A DNA stretch of 64,000 bases from Pseudonocardiaceae bacterium (lineage in GTDB: Bacteria > Actinomycetota > Actinomycetes > Mycobacteriales > Pseudonocardiaceae): NCBI GenBank assembly GCA_009377865.1, contig WHTH01000016.1:1-64000 (forward strand). Direction: 5' to 3'. The notes beneath the pieces are model-generated. The model was given only the letters and a program-made list of their open reading frames with translations. It did no database searches and was not told where the DNA came from. Position 1 is the first letter of the stretch, and the number at the start of each line of letters is the position of its first letter. Shown one piece after another: positions 33,075 through 40,679 of the stretch. A program made the translations under genes and the position numbers.

Positions 33075-35325
<2,251 letters not shown>

Positions 35326-36100
35326 ATGGACGCCTGCTACGAGCAGTTCGAGCCGGGCCGTTACCGGTCGACCGAGCACACCGTGGGCCCATCGTCGGCC
35401 GAGATGCAGCACATGGGTCCACCGTCGGCGCTGCTGACCCGGGAGCTCGAGCGCCACGCGCTCCGCGAGGACGTGGCATTGTCCCGCATCACCGTCGAGG
35501 TACTCGGTGCCGTGCCCCCGGTGGACCTGGAGGTCTCCGCCCAGACGGGTTCGTCCCGGCCGAACCGTCGAGCTGCTCGAAGCGGAGCTGACGGCCGACG
35601 GGCGGCCGGTGGCGCTCGCCCAGGGTTGGCGGCTGGCGCTGGCCGACACCGCCGACGTCGCGGGAGGGGCGCCGCCGAGGTTGCCGCCACCCGAGCAGGC
35701 CGTGACGCGTCCGGTGCCGCCCGAGTGGATCCCCGGCTACCTCGACGCGCTGGAGTGGCGCTGGGTGCGCGGCCACCTCGGCGAGCAGGGTCCTGGCACG
35801 GCCTGGGCCCGGCTGCGGGTTGCGGTGGTGGCAGGCGAGGACCCCACACCGTTGCAGCGATTGATGGCGACCGCCGACTCCGCAAACGGCATCGCGTCGC
35901 GGCTCGACTTCACGCAGTGGCTGTTCCTCAACACCGACCTCAGCGTGCACCTGCACCGCCGGCCCACCGGCGAGTGGTTCGGGGTCGATGCTGAGACCGT
36001 GATCGGGGCCGCGGGCGCGGGAGTGTGTTCAGCGGTGCTGCACGACGGGTCGGGGCCGGTGGGCCGTAGCTCCCAGGTGCTCACGATCCGGCCACGGTGA
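35326..36100 (+). pseudogene. Acyl-CoA thioesterase-like gene with a single frameshift
   Basis: The first frame (35326 to about 35550) encodes CYEQFEPGRYRSTEHTVGP through PPVDLEVSAQ. The second frame then carries RVRPGRTVELLEAELTADG to the natural end QVLTIRPR at 36100. Together they give one double-hotdog TesB-like thioesterase of about 255 residues. One extra base near 35550 (GCCCAGACGGG) explains the break. Either the gene is dead, or this is a sequencing error, since both halves look well conserved. Confidence 0.8.
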
Positions 36101-36124
36101 GACTGTCGACCCGCCTTACGCAGG

Positions 36125-36673
36125 GTGGTCCGACAGCGCCGGGTCGGGATCGTGCCCGGCATCTTGCAAACCGGGGAGTATGCCCGGGCGTTGCTTCAGC
36201 GGTCGGGAACTGTTCCAGACAACGAGATCGAGGATCGCGTGGCCGCCCGGCTGGCCCGGCAGAGCCTGTTCAGCCGGGATCACCCGGCGCGCTTCACCTT
36301 CTACCTGCACGAGTTCGTGCTGCGGCTGCCCGTCGGTGGACCCGCCGTGATGTCCGACCAGTTGCACCACCTGCTGCGCATGGCGATGCGGCCCTACCTC
36401 ACGCTACGGGTGGTTCCAGCCACCTTCGGCGCACACGCAGGGTCGGCAGGCTCCTTCACCCTCATGGAGTTCGCCGAGTTCAAGCCGGTGGCCTACCTGG
36501 AGAGCGAGACCTCCAGCCTGTTCCTGGAGAAGCCCGTGGAGACCGCCGCCTACCAGCACGTCCTGGCGGCGCTGGCGGAGTCCACGCTGCGCGAGGGAGA
36601 ATCGAGAGAGCTGATTGCCACCCTGGCAACCGAGCTCTATGCGGATCGAGAGGATCATGATGACCGCGCCTGA
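36125..36673 (+). pseudogene. DUF5753 regulator lacking its helix-turn-helix
   Basis: The frame encodes a good DUF5753 domain (IVPGILQTGEYARALLQRS, FTFYLHEFVLRLPVGG, SAGSFTLMEFAEFKPVAYLE). In actinobacteria this domain always follows an XRE helix-turn-helix. Here the DNA-binding half is missing because the intact end of the thioesterase lies directly upstream. It is a truncated regulator, still paired with its usual DUF397 partner. Confidence 0.75.
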
Positions 36674-36848
36674 GCCGGACGGCATCGTCTGGCACACGAG
36701 CAGCTACAGCAACGGCGAAGCCGCCTGCGTCGAGGTCGCGCCCGCGCCGGACCGGGTCCTGGTGCGCGACTCCAAGGACCCCGACGGTCCCGGGCTGACC
36801 GTAACTCCGGACGCATGGCGAGCCTTCCTCGCCATCGTCACCCGCTGA
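36657..36848 (+). CDS. DUF397 family small protein
   Basis: A 63-residue DUF397 protein (WHTSSYSNGEAACVEVAPAP, then VRDSKDPDGPGLTVTPDAWRAFL), all landmarks intact. DUF397 proteins pair with XRE/DUF5753 regulators and are often toxin-like or modulatory partners. It overlaps the end of the DUF5753 frame by about 17 bases. Confidence 0.9.
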   Translation: MMTAPEPDGIVWHTSSYSNGEAACVEVAPAPDRVLVRDSKDPDGPGLTVTPDAWRAFLAIVTR

Positions 36849-36949
36849 CCACGCTGTATGACGTCCAGGCACTGACAGCGTGCACGGGGTCGTCCGCGTG
36901 GTCTGACACAATCGACGCAATGGGTTGTCCTGCCCATCGGGAGGTTGCC

Positions 36950-37873
36950 GTGCCGCCAGCCACGCCCGCGCTGTCGTTCATGTGGTTGGAGATCACGGGT
37001 AAGTGCCAGTTGAGCTGCCGCCACTGCTATGCGGACTCGGGGCCGCGTGGCACACATGGAGCCATGACTCATGGTGACTGGCAACGCGCCATCGATGAGG
37101 CAGCCGGACTCGGCGTGGTCATGGTGCAGTTCATCGGCGGAGAGCCGACGCTGCACCCCGAGCTGCCCGCATTAGTCGACCATGCGCTGGCCGCCGGTCT
37201 GCAGGTCGAAGTCTTCTCGAACCTGGTGCATGTCTCGGCGAGGCTGTGGGACACGTTCGGTCGCCCCGGCGTTCGGCTGGCATGCTCGTACTACTCCGAC
37301 GACGACGCCGAACATGCGCGTATCACCGGCCGCCGGGCCAGCCATGCCCGCACAACGGCGAACATCGCCGAGGCGCGGCGACGCTCGATACCGCTTCGAG
37401 TCGGTCTCATCGACGTACTGTACGGACAACGCATCGACGCCGCCGTCAGCGAGTTGACCGCGCTCGGCGTGCAGGACGTCGGTACTGACCGGTTGCGGCA
37501 GGTCGGGCGCGGTCAACTCGCTGACGTTGATCAGTTGTGCGGTAAATGTGCTCGTGGGGTATTGGCAATATCTCCGACGGGTACCGTCTGGCCGTGCGTG
37601 TTCTCCCGTTGGTTGCCAGTCGGCAACGTCCGTGAACAGAGTCTTGACGCGATCATCAAGGGTCGGGCGGTCGCTGCGACCAGGGCCATGCTGGCCGCGC
37701 ATTTCGCCGGCCGAACGTTGCCTGGTGGTCAGGCGTCATGCGGCCCATACTGCCAGCCCACGTGCCCGCCGAACTGCTCGCCGTCGTGTCGGCCGCAGCA
37801 CAACTGCACACCGGTCGCTTGCGGTCCGCAAGGGAACTGTTGGCCGAAGTACGGGTGCAAGCCGAGTGGATAG
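36950..37873 (+). CDS. Radical SAM enzyme with a C-terminal Cys-X-Pro repeat tail
   Basis: A 307-residue radical SAM protein. The GTG at 36950 is chosen for its GGGAGG ribosome site 5 bases upstream; an in-frame ATG at 36920 is less likely. The SAM cluster motif C-x3-C-x2-C is Cys19/23/26 (CQLSCRHCYA). IGGEPTLHPEL is the GGEP motif. A shortened SPASM/twitch-like region follows (LCGKCARGVLAISPTG, then VWPC). The last 45 residues (37736-37870) contain nine Cys, each in a Cys-X-Pro unit: CGP, CQP, CPP, CSP, CRP, CTP, CGP, CWP, CKP. Such a tail could bind extra clusters or be an in-cis peptide substrate. A rare TTA codon lies at 37172. Downstream are an AAA ATPase and an APH-like kinase. Confidence 0.85.
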   Translation: MPPATPALSFMWLEITGKCQLSCRHCYADSGPRGTHGAMTHGDWQRAIDEAAGLGVVMVQFIGGEPTLHPELPALVDHALAAGLQVEVFSNLVHVSARLWDTFGRPGVRLACSYYSDDDAEHARITGRRASHARTTANIAEARRRSIPLRVGLIDVLYGQRIDAAVSELTALGVQDVGTDRLRQVGRGQLADVDQLCGKCARGVLAISPTGTVWPCVFSRWLPVGNVREQSLDAIIKGRAVAATRAMLAAHFAGRTLPGGQASCGPYCQPTCPPNCSPSCRPQHNCTPVACGPQGNCWPKYGCKPSG

Positions 37874-37887
37874 TAGGACCTACACAA

Positions 37888-38634
37888 ATGATCATCACTG
37901 GTGTGACGCCGCGTAACGCTGCCGACGGCGAAGACGCCACACTGCGCGGTTGGCCATTCGAGCTTCCTCCGGTTGCACAGTTGCTCCGTGACGGTTTGAC
38001 ATTCACGGCGCCCGTCACCTTGTTGGTTGGGGAGAACGGCTCTGGCAAGTCCACGATCATCGAGGCGATCGCGGAAGCGTACGGGGTGGATAGACGAGGC
38101 GGACATATCGGTCGTGACTACGCCTCGCCGCTGGAAAAAGCCCCGCTCGGCCGTGAGATCCGTCTCGAACGAACGAAGGTCGGGCGGCGGATGGTGGGAA
38201 CCAAGCCTCGTGGGTATTTCCTGCGCGCCGAGACCGCATACGGATTCTTCGAATACGTATCCGGAACGCCCGCCTACGATGAGCATGATTTGTTTTCCAT
38301 GAGTCATGGTGAGTCTTTTCTTGCCGTATTCGACGTTCGCTTCGCTCGCCAAGGCCTGTATCTGATGGATGAACCGGAGTCGGCGCTGTCGTTCTCGTCC
38401 ACCCTGAAGTTACTCGCGCTGCTCGATGACCTACGCAACACCGGATCACAGGTCATCTGCGCCACCCATTCCCCACTGCTGGCCGCGCTGTCCGGAGCGC
38501 AGATTCTCGAACTCGGTGACCACGGAATCCGCACCGTGCCATGGAACGAGCTGGAACTGGTCGACCATTGGAGGCGATTTTTGGCACAACCGGATTCCTA
38601 TCTCAGATATTTGATTGACAACCGAGAAACATGA
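37888..38634 (+). CDS. AAA/ABC-type ATPase of the radical SAM island
   Basis: A 248-residue stand-alone ATPase. Walker A is LVGENGSGKSTIIEAI, the signature-like stretch is SMSHGESFLAVF, Walker B is GLYLMDEPESALS, and the switch His is in VICATHSPLL. It has no membrane domain. This matches the predicted ATP-binding (AAA_23/OLD-like) family rather than a transporter. The ATG at 37888 lies 14 bases after the radical SAM stop. The gene looks visibly less GC-rich than its surroundings. The stop overlaps the next start by 4 bases. Confidence 0.85.
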   Translation: MIITGVTPRNAADGEDATLRGWPFELPPVAQLLRDGLTFTAPVTLLVGENGSGKSTIIEAIAEAYGVDRRGGHIGRDYASPLEKAPLGREIRLERTKVGRRMVGTKPRGYFLRAETAYGFFEYVSGTPAYDEHDLFSMSHGESFLAVFDVRFARQGLYLMDEPESALSFSSTLKLLALLDDLRNTGSQVICATHSPLLAALSGAQILELGDHGIRTVPWNELELVDHWRRFLAQPDSYLRYLIDNRET

Positions 38635-39491
38635 CAACGTCGACACCGGACCCGAACGCGGCACACCGGGCAGTCATGCGGCAGAACCTGGATCACGCTG
38701 CTGCCGTACTGGGCGTGGAGATCGCAGATGGCGTGGCCTGGGGTTGGCGCGACCGTTCCATCGGGGCACACGTCACGAACGACCGAGGGGACTGGTGGCT
38801 GCGTGTCGTGCGCGAGCTGACCGCGTGGACGGGTGGAGATTTCTGGCGCGGCAACGCCGAAGCAACTGCCATCACAGGGGTGCCCAAGCCCGCAGTCACC
38901 TGGATCGAGGAGTGGGACGACGGCGATGTCCAGTTCCGCGCCGAGCTGATGACCCTCATCCGTGCACATCGGTGCGCGGCGACAGAACCGCTACGCGACA
39001 CGATCACGTTGTCGGATACCTGGTGGTCGACCCTGCGCCACTCAGTGGACCGCGTCGCCAACTGGCCCACCGACCGTACGTGTCTCGACCAGGAAACTGT
39101 TACTCGACGGCTGCTCGCTTTCTACGGCCCTGAGGTCGACGCGACGGTCACCGCATGGACGACCGCCCATGGTGACCTGCATTGGGCCAATGTCACCGAA
39201 CCGCAGTGCTACATCTTGGACTGGGAAGGCTGGGGCCTCGCGCCGTTGGGCTACGACGCGGCGACCCTCTACTGCCACAGCCTTCTGGTCCCGGCAGTCG
39301 CGCGTCGTGTACACGAGACATTCACCGACATTCTCGACAGCGAACCGGGTCGACTCGCACAACTGTACACGATCACCAGATTGCTGCTCCGCATCGAGGA
39401 CGGCGATTACCCTGACCTCGCCGGACCATTACACGAACACCTCGGGGACCTACTTCTGGGTTCTCGTGGGACTGGCTGTAGGAGCAAATAG
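38631..39491 (+). CDS. APH/choline-kinase-like phosphotransferase
   Basis: A 286-residue protein with the catalytic loop AHGDLHWANVT and the metal-binding YILDWEGWGLAPLGYDAATL of the aminoglycoside phosphotransferase fold. The N-lobe is short and divergent (WWLRVVRELTAWTGG), so ATP binding may be altered. The substrate is unknown, and antibiotic resistance should not be assumed. A TTA codon occurs at 39429. It is coupled to the ATPase gene by an ATGA overlap. Confidence 0.75.
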   Translation: MTTSTPDPNAAHRAVMRQNLDHAAAVLGVEIADGVAWGWRDRSIGAHVTNDRGDWWLRVVRELTAWTGGDFWRGNAEATAITGVPKPAVTWIEEWDDGDVQFRAELMTLIRAHRCAATEPLRDTITLSDTWWSTLRHSVDRVANWPTDRTCLDQETVTRRLLAFYGPEVDATVTAWTTAHGDLHWANVTEPQCYILDWEGWGLAPLGYDAATLYCHSLLVPAVARRVHETFTDILDSEPGRLAQLYTITRLLLRIEDGDYPDLAGPLHEHLGDLLLGSRGTGCRSK

Positions 39492-39528
39492 TAGCGGCTG
39501 CCTTTCGACTGACTTCCGACGGCGGGAA

Positions 39529-40374
39529 TCAGAACCGGCAGGAGCGGATGTCCGTGGCGAGGATCGCCTTGGCGCCGGTGACCGACAGCAGGTCCATGAT
39601 GCGGTTGGCCTCCCGCCGGGGCACCATCGCGCGCACCGCCACCCAGCTCGGATCGGCCAGCGGTGCCACCGTCGGTGACTCGATGCCCGGGGTGATGCGG
39701 ACGGCCTCGTCGAGCAGCGACTTCGGGCAGTCGTAGTCGAGCATCAGGTACTGCTGGGCGAACACCACACCCTGCAATCGCGCGGCGAGCTGGGCCTTCT
39801 CCGAGGTGGCCACGCTGTCGCGGCCCTCGAGCAGCACGGCCTCCGAGGAGCAGATCGCGTCGCCGAAGGCAGCCAGCCCGTGCTGGCGCAGGGTGCGCCC
39901 GTGCTCGACCACGTCGGCGATGGCGTCGGCCACGCCCAGTTGCACCGAGATCTCGACCGCCCCGTCGAGCCGGATCACCTCGGCAGCGACGCCCTGGCGG
40001 TGCAGGTCATCGCGCACCAGCCGGGGGTAGGAAGTGGCCACCCGCAACCCGTCGAGATCCCCGACCTTCCAGTCGCGGCCGATCGGAGCGGCATAGCGGA
40101 AATCGGAAGAACCGAAACTCAGCGCGAGCCGCTCGTCGACCGGTGCCTCGGAATCCAGCGCGAGGTCGCGCCCGGTGATACCCAGGTCGAGGTCGCCGGA
40201 GCCGACGTAGATCGGGATGTCCTTGGGACGCAGGAAGAAGAACTCGACCTCGTTGAGCGAGTCGATGATCGTCAGGTCCTTGACGTCGTGCCGCTGCCGG
40301 TAACCGGCCTCGACGAGCATCTCCGATGCGGGCAGCGCGAGTGCCCCCTTGTTTGGTACCGCCACGCGCAGCAT
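39529..40374 (-). CDS. hisG: ATP phosphoribosyltransferase HisG, long form
   Basis: First enzyme of histidine synthesis (ATP + PRPP). A 281-residue long-form HisG with the C-terminal ACT-like regulatory domain ([20 protein letters not shown]). Motifs: [30 protein letters not shown] and [17 protein letters not shown]. The ATG at 40374 has a GGAGAAG ribosome site. It follows hisE. Confidence 0.96.
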
Positions 40375-40391
40375 GCGCTTCTCCTCAGGTC

Positions 40392-40655
40392 TCACAGGTG
40401 CCGGTAGACGTCCTCGGTGCTCAGGCCCCGGCCGAGCATGAGCACCTGCACCCGGTAGAGCAGTTGCGAGATCTCCTCGGCGAGCCGCTCGTCGGGCTCG
40501 TGCTCGGCGGCGATCCACACCTCACCAGCCTCCTCGAGCACCTTCTTGCCCTGGGCGTGTACCCCGGCGTCGAGCGCGAGCACCGTGCCCGACCCTGCGG
40601 GCCTGCTGCGTGCCCGTTCGGACAGCTCATCGAAGAGCTCGTCGAAGGTCTTCAC
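40392..40655 (-). CDS. hisE: Phosphoribosyl-ATP diphosphatase HisE
   Basis: Second step of histidine synthesis. An 87-residue MazG-like all-helical protein with [17 protein letters not shown] and the [15 protein letters not shown] acidic metal motif. Same operon as hisG. Confidence 0.96.
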
Positions 40656-40679
40656 GAGGCGCCATCCTCCCGGGGGCCG

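Follow-up and report, generated by a model that had tools for sequence, protein, structure and literature searches.

Organization of the locus

The window, by which we mean the whole 64,000-nucleotide stretch analysed (positions 1 to 64,000 of contig WHTH01000016.1, from a Pseudonocardiaceae bacterium), contains a gene for a radical SAM/SPASM protein that lies with genes for an ATPase and a kinase in a short cassette. The features discussed below are as follows (window coordinates; + denotes the forward strand).

36104..39528, no strand: 3.4-kb insertion with the cassette, delimited by BLASTN against a same-genus genome (G001, locus L283)
36125..36673, +: C-terminal DUF5753 part of an XRE/Scr1-type regulator (Pfam DUF5753, 1.7e-50; sole domain in the ORF)
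36615..36848, +: DUF397 protein (Pfam DUF397, 4.4e-22)
36815, +: alternative in-frame ATG, which would yield a 352-aa product from the radical SAM gene
36939..36944, +: Shine-Dalgarno-like GGGAGG, 5 bases upstream of the GTG start
36950..37873, +: radical SAM/SPASM protein with CxP tail (GTG start, 307 aa by translation)
36989..37432, +: radical SAM domain, residues 14-161 (Pfam Radical_SAM; C19-x3-C23-x2-C26, GGEP)
37538..37684, +: SPASM half-domain, residues 197-245 (Pfam match 199-245; Cys197, Cys200, Cys216)
37739..37870, +: CxP tail, residues 264-307, nine Cys-X-Pro units, proposed in-cis substrate (pLDDT <50 for 261-307)
37888..38634, +: ABC-type AAA ATPase, 248 aa (Pfam AAA_21, 1.9e-15), a frequent partner
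38631..39491, +: APH-like kinase, 286 aa (Pfam APH, 7.4e-4), a frequent partner; 4-base overlap with the ATPase gene

The window has 3,425 bp where the same-genus locus L283 has 27 bp, the flanks at 34373-36103 (81.3% identical) and 39529-40671 (84.3%) aligning that distance apart in L283, and a second same-genus locus (L254) has the same gene order without the cassette. The G+C content is about 59-67% within this segment and 68-73% around it, and the cassette was most probably acquired as an insertion. DUF397 proteins usually accompany DUF5753 regulators; this pair was considered as part of the system and rejected, as its position is not fixed across loci. Next to the insertion, positions 35326-36100 hold two overlapping frames against one frame in L254, and the gene there may be frameshifted in the window. 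The ATG at 37888, 14 bases past the radical SAM stop, was chosen in this analysis as the start of the ATPase gene, the ORF being open from 37738. The Walker A, SHG, DEPE and THSP columns of the ATPase are at least 97% kept in 70 aligned rows. The kinase scores 19.8 bits with Pfam APH, under the gathering score of 23.2, and its H180, D182, H184, W185, N187 and D197-W198-E199 are at least 97% kept in 94 rows.

A radical SAM protein with half a SPASM domain

In the 307-aa protein the Pfam Radical_SAM match (residues 14-161; 2.3e-16, 60.8 bits against a cut-off of 29.5) and the SPASM match (199-245; 1.2e-7, 32.3 bits against 21.5) are accompanied only by a sub-threshold Fer4_12 match, and a borosin-type alpha-N-methyltransferase domain was not found by Pfam. 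Of 53 NCBIfam matches the 25 best all stay under their own cut-offs (the first, PqqE, gives 68.9 bits against 381), and in PHROGs the enzyme matches a generic radical SAM family, the ATPase eight families and the kinase none. Cys19, Cys23, Cys26 and GGEP are invariant across the 56 rows of alignment A1 (the window protein and 55 of 67 loci, excluding eight rows closely related to others that were kept and four in which the tail was short or missing). The first half of a SPASM domain has the form C-x9-15-G-x4-C and the usual second half is C-x2-C-x5-C-x3-C. The first half is present in the window protein as Cys197-x2-Cys200-x10-G-x4-Cys216, and its motif occurs in 159 of the 162 homologues described below; the second half is absent from the window protein, whose tail contains no C-x2-C. 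This refines the initial annotation, which stated that ordinary SPASM domains do not look like the tail.

Distribution of the radical SAM gene

Searches returned 231 matching ORFs, of which 204 were full-length single ORFs and 162, including the window protein, were distinct; identity of the window protein to the other 161 is 36-64%, and the tail counts given for this set mostly omit copies broken by frameshifts or stops. A contig scan gave 95 relatives, and the best 80 of these are nearly all from actinobacteria, with many from Pseudonocardiaceae, Nocardiopsis and Streptosporangiales, and also include two from Thermoactinomycetaceae (Lihuaxuella and Laceyella) and some from metagenome bins labelled Acidobacteriota and Bacillota. 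The gene is patchily distributed among genomes, with matches in 57 of 249 from the window's own family and 37 of 249 from a second family (both at E <= 1e-40) and in 26 of 296 at class level (E <= 1e-30). Relatives were present on 30 plasmid records, in two Mycobacterium abscessus prophages and on three viral contigs. The genome from which the window comes has three further copies, all broken or shortened (L111 on contig C56, L112 on contig C115 and L113 on contig C81); two of these loci have kinase and ATPase matches, that to the ATPase at L111 being in two pieces, and the third copy lies just upstream of genes that by eye resemble those for ribosomal proteins L22 and S3. One contig carries two radical SAM relatives roughly 8 kb apart, the second of them a fragment (L090:16586-16898).

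A C-terminal array of Cys-X-Pro units

The window protein was initially annotated as ending in nine Cys-X-Pro units (CGP, CQP, CPP, CSP, CRP, CTP, CGP, CWP and CKP) spaced 4 to 6 residues apart. Translation confirms all nine in this order within the last 44 residues, every tail cysteine (264, 268, 272, 276, 280, 286, 291, 297 and 303) being part of a CxP, with measured spacings of 4, 4, 4, 4, 6, 5, 6 and 6. Shuffling the window tail 20,000 times gave a mean of 2.0 CxP and a maximum of seven, against the nine observed. Across the 162 homologues 901 of 928 tail cysteines lie in CxP (mean 185 and maximum 222 in 1,000 shuffles), so the tail is not a stray reading frame, and Pro is kept at +2 for 97% of tail cysteines among relatives only 36-64% identical to the window protein and drawn from actinobacteria and Thermoactinomycetaceae. 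The commonest step between successive CxP cysteines is 4 residues (270 cases), followed by 6 (131) and 8 (105), and the number of tail cysteines per homologue ranges from 0 to 14.

Two unusual sets of tails should be noted. In one clade (L138, L163, L167, L169, L172 and L181) the tail is nearly constant (CTPPQFLPMCGPCGPCVPSVGHCDP) and adjoins the gene of a 115-aa protein that gave no Pfam or NCBIfam match. In L252 and L106, one of which is a prophage copy, the tail is interrupted by an in-frame TGA, which might reflect decay or recoding; decay is a simpler reading than selenocysteine.

The gene sits in exchangeable cassettes

The radical SAM gene is found in exchangeable cassettes. Partner genes were sought within 2.6 kb (ATPase, kinase and PIMT-type methyltransferase) or 1.5 kb (others). 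The ATPase and kinase genes are both present at 58 of the 162 loci, in several orders and orientations, and at 54 there is a PIMT-type methyltransferase instead, one of these having the kinase too. A second kinase-like protein (L209 type, with HxDxxxxN and DW recognized by eye, and unmatched in Pfam and NCBIfam at E <= 0.01) is the partner at 11 loci, and a chloramphenicol-phosphotransferase-like protein at six (L232-L235, L242 and L243), the tails of which have two CxP; the partner at L234, which was the one scanned, scores 285.6 bits with NF033114 (cut-off 250). The remainder have the kinase only (nine), the ATPase only (two), one of two unnamed small proteins (eight) or no partner found (14, an upper bound as many flanks extend for only 1.5 kb).

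All 12 members of a recurrent methyltransferase neighbour cluster belong to the PIMT family. In the 15 plasmid records, out of 30, for which neighbours were examined, the next gene downstream bears a methyltransferase annotation in 11, in nine of them that of a protein-L-isoaspartate O-methyltransferase; of the other four records one has a phosphotransferase, one a hypothetical protein followed by an AAA ATPase, and two are unannotated at this place. The partner at L114 (376 aa), again the one scanned, matches TIGR04188 over positions 4-360 of 363 with 265.7 bits, below the cut-off of 380; this model represents the methyltransferase of ATP-grasp peptide systems. The motif WXXXGXP, which together with an extra C-terminal domain characterizes RiPP-type PIMTs, occurs in 10 of 58 methyltransferases of the cassettes. 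Enzymes of the PIMT type methylate Asp residues of RiPPs (PMC13001092). Among the neighbours, which are partly annotated, no family other than the ATPase, the kinase and PIMT keeps a constant position in more than six loci, which leaves the protease or exporter for any release of a product unexplained.

An exclusive dependence of the kinase on the radical SAM gene was rejected, because the kinase family is common without that gene: it has a match in 96 of 249 own-family genomes (E <= 1e-25), and at 18 of 20 kinase loci of 5.5-8.3 kb each, chosen for absence of the radical SAM gene, there was no radical SAM match nearby. Seven of these 20 loci (L284-L303) have a whole or partial ATPase match adjoining.

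Tails vary in repeat number and composition

It had been suggested that, if the tail were a substrate, homologues would vary in repeat number around a conserved catalytic core, whereas strict conservation of each Cys at fixed spacing would point the other way. Both the number and the spacing of the cysteines vary. Among 79 pairs of proteins with 75-85% core identity the Cys number is unequal in 46%, and the tails differ by 8.3 residues on average where the cores differ by 2.7; in one comparison (L177 and L213) the cores are 83% identical and there are three tail units against one. This outcome favours the substrate reading. Tandem copies of 16-44 aligned columns were detected in eight of 118 tails of at least 30 aa, a tail being counted when its score was over 15 units above the highest from 20 shuffles that preserved Cys and Pro. 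Of these eight tails, seven lie beside PIMT and one lacks a known partner, and there were none in the 56 ATPase-plus-kinase tails of this length, the window's own type. In L177 and L184 two copies were found by the tandem test and a third, more diverged, by eye, and the linkers end in LGG or LGA. Such units would be expected of a multi-core precursor and would be odd for a cluster-binding domain. A separate feature of L177, L183, L184 and L162 is that LGG or MGG (LGA once) often precedes the tail units, which resembles a double-glycine cleavage site.

The make-up of the tail also varies according to the partner. Among tails beside PIMT, 49 of 54 contain an Asp followed by Gly, Ser, Thr or Asn, but among those beside the ATPase and kinase only four of 58 do (Fisher 5e-21), and the median Asp frequency of the tails is 0.130 and 0.054, respectively, whereas Asp in the cores does not differ between the two groups (p = 0.32). 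An Asp that precedes Pro cannot form aspartimide, and in the ATPase-plus-kinase tails Pro follows 46 of 98 Asp. The same Asp feature is seen where no PIMT was found: in five of the 11 tails beside the second kinase-like protein, in four of the nine that have just the kinase and in four of the 14 for which the search gave no partner. On a tree of the 162 cores PIMT needs eight changes, and five well-supported independent pairs could be formed, of which on average 2.5 agree with the association, 0.5 disagree and 2.0 show no difference. Five pairs are too few, and phylogenetically independent proof of the link was accordingly not claimed; the contrast is largely one phylogenetic split, a consistent pattern rather than proof.

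Predicted structure, leader-binding domain and separate precursors

An AlphaFold2 model of the window protein (56 sequences) has a mean pLDDT of 84.2, with 24 of the first 25 ten-residue blocks at 80-99 and one (181-190) at 62, but residues 261-307 fall below 50. The model of a PIMT-linked relative (L110) is alike, its residues 251-284 also being below 50. The tail is thus predicted to be disordered in two models, which is weak evidence because AlphaFold2 works without metals and is poor on repeats. Among Foldseek's best chains the closest solved structures are SkfB (Z 25.0; 248 residues, 3.8 A) and then SuiB (Z 23.9), followed by BlsE, PqqE, anSME (Z 20.2), viperins, CteB (5wgg, Z 19.7) and ChlB, some of these names being presumed from the entry codes. 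The alignment starts at residue 100 of SkfB, 98 of SuiB and 86 of CteB, and the unmatched N-terminal part of these three proteins is their leader-binding RRE. As SkfB and SuiB align only from these positions, the N-terminal leader-binding domain is missing in the window protein, the 307-aa chain of which starts at the first radical SAM strand. There was no Pfam match to a PqqD-like (RRE) domain at E <= 0.1 in the radical SAM, ATPase or kinase proteins.

A separate precursor was sought among small ORFs (22-130 aa) outside known genes and within 2.5-4 kb of 112 radical SAM genes, 58 of them beside the ATPase and kinase (type A) and 54 beside PIMT (type B); for many of these loci the flanks cover only 1.5 kb. 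No small-ORF family occurred in more than seven loci, and the widest among those shown come from Lentzea loci.

Discussion

From the observed conservation and variability of the tail, its make-up and predicted disorder, and the mobile, exchangeable cassettes, we infer that the tail is modified, and with this the chemistry and the roles of the partners and of the product. Our preferred explanation, to which we give slightly better than an even chance (a probability of about 0.56), is that the protein is a self-contained RiPP maturase-precursor whose disordered tail is its own substrate. Residues 1-255 would form the enzyme, fused through a helix and linker to the substrate tail (about 261-307), and would act on the CxP cysteines of the tail of the same chain or of a neighbouring one. 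With enzyme and substrate in one chain a leader-binding domain would be superfluous, and therefore the protein would need no RRE domain and no separate gene for a precursor. Each tail Cys would be oxidised through 5'-deoxyadenosyl-radical chemistry, and because only the Pro at +2 is fixed beside the Cys, the CxP itself may be the recognition element. Should the tail be modified, a thioether cross-link by analogy with the structural neighbours SkfB and CteB is a tentative suggestion that we would put a little short of even, and Cys oxidation of the kind seen in sulfatase maturation, where a C-X-P motif is likewise read, is possible at perhaps one chance in three. The partners would tailor the tail: the APH-like kinase and ABC-type ATPase in the window, and elsewhere the RiPP-type aspartate methyltransferase, which would act on tail Asp before Gly, Ser, Thr or Asn. 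Whether these proteins together constitute a RiPP class is close to an evenly balanced question; it would be defined by an RRE-less radical SAM enzyme carrying one to three variable cores as its tail, modification of the CxP cysteines in cis and exchangeable, tail-matched partners (aspartate methyltransferase, kinases, ATPase), as a radical SAM counterpart of the borosins on actinobacterial plasmids, prophages and insertions.

The initial annotation had allowed the tail to be either an in-cis substrate or an unusual multi-cluster domain, and the varying repeat number favours the first, but one or two tail cysteines could nevertheless be ligands of an auxiliary cluster. In its full form the second reading makes the tail a metal-binding module in which the first cysteines complete the auxiliary SPASM/twitch cluster, the rest hold Fe-S or other metal centres and the substrate is separate. 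The SPASM half supplies Cys197, Cys200 and Cys216, one short of four ligands, and the first tail CxP follows the last SPASM Cys at a rather constant distance (median 43 residues, s.d. 4.3, range 21-55, n=157); later SPASM ligands occur at a spacing near this distance. At least two CxP are kept in 158 of the 162 tails, and this and the constant distance are as expected of cluster ligands and count against the substrate reading. A tail given over entirely to metal is, however, difficult to square with the variation in Cys number and spacing, with tandem units in eight of 118 tails, with the 18 of 162 that have exactly two CxP, with a make-up that differs by partner enzyme and with the predicted disorder, and we consider it unlikely.

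A second alternative is that the radical SAM core acts on a partner protein or small metabolite, with the tail serving other enzymes or export as a substrate or handle, or forming a redox or sulfur store; on this view the cassette may function in defence or conflict. Such a role would fit the partners, which include an ATPase and several kinases, as well as the presence of the gene on prophages, plasmids and an insertion, its frequent decay and, at the level of the superfamily, a similarity to viperins (pVip, 52.1 bits). In PADLOC the radical SAM and ATPase proteins are matched in part and the kinase not at all, the viperin NCBIfam model NF038283 gives 40.3 bits against a cut-off of 180, and the first structural neighbours are peptide maturases, with one partner of the RiPP-methyltransferase type; we therefore think this alternative improbable, and assignment as a defence system was not adopted as the PADLOC matches are partial and at superfamily level. 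A functionless, low-complexity tail, as the four homologues of 162 with none or one CxP (L067, L073, L143 and L153) might suggest, is scarcely credible when retention of Pro at +2 across such diverged relatives needs selection.

The proposed in-cis arrangement has its closest precedent in the borosins of the OphMA type, in which an N-terminal enzyme and a C-terminal core peptide form one autocatalytic chain (PMC7878506, PMC8429565). The sequences here would share with these the order of enzyme and proposed core and, in some cases, tandem units, but differ in being radical SAM/SPASM proteins without the alpha-N-methyltransferase, in having CxP repeats, in belonging to bacterial cassettes with other partners and in that their modification is an interpretation. 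Likeness to SkfB, SuiB and CteB extends to the core fold; in contrast to maturases of that type the family has no N-terminal RRE, no conserved separate precursor that we could find and only the first SPASM half, together with a substrate-like tail. With the imiditides and cysimiditides there is a resemblance in the adjoining PIMT gene and the Asp-containing tails described above, and cysimiditide precursors also contain Cys, but theirs are separate small precursor genes and the cysimiditides have CXXCXGXG zinc motifs (PMC13001092). The term 'radical SAM' is absent from that review.

A further comparison is with the anSME. These are SPASM radical SAM enzymes that act on the Cys of C-X-P-X-R and have as catalytic base an Asp directly after the third SPASM Cys. 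The CxP unit is part of that motif and the fold is similar, but just 28 of 895 tail CxP are CxPxR, the proposed substrate is in cis, and at the position following the SPASM Cys 139 of 159 homologues have Val and none has Asp; membership of the anSME was rejected on the CxPxR and Asp counts. Radical SAM enzymes can turn the Cys of the sulfatase motif CxPxR into formylglycine (PMC11500405). In the literature searched (mainly open-access, and largely titles and the beginnings of abstracts) we could not find a radical SAM enzyme-core fusion described, so that while fusion of enzyme and core is known from the borosins, the radical SAM version appears to be undescribed.

If the tail were to bind clusters instead, it would rank as a highly unusual domain with multiple clusters. 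If it is modified in cis, as we favour, one gene would provide both a radical SAM catalyst and its substrate, which would remove the problem of leader recognition and allow the modification to be followed by mass spectrometry on just one protein. It would also offer a platform whose tails already vary naturally, and would show how mining for small separate genes can miss precursors.
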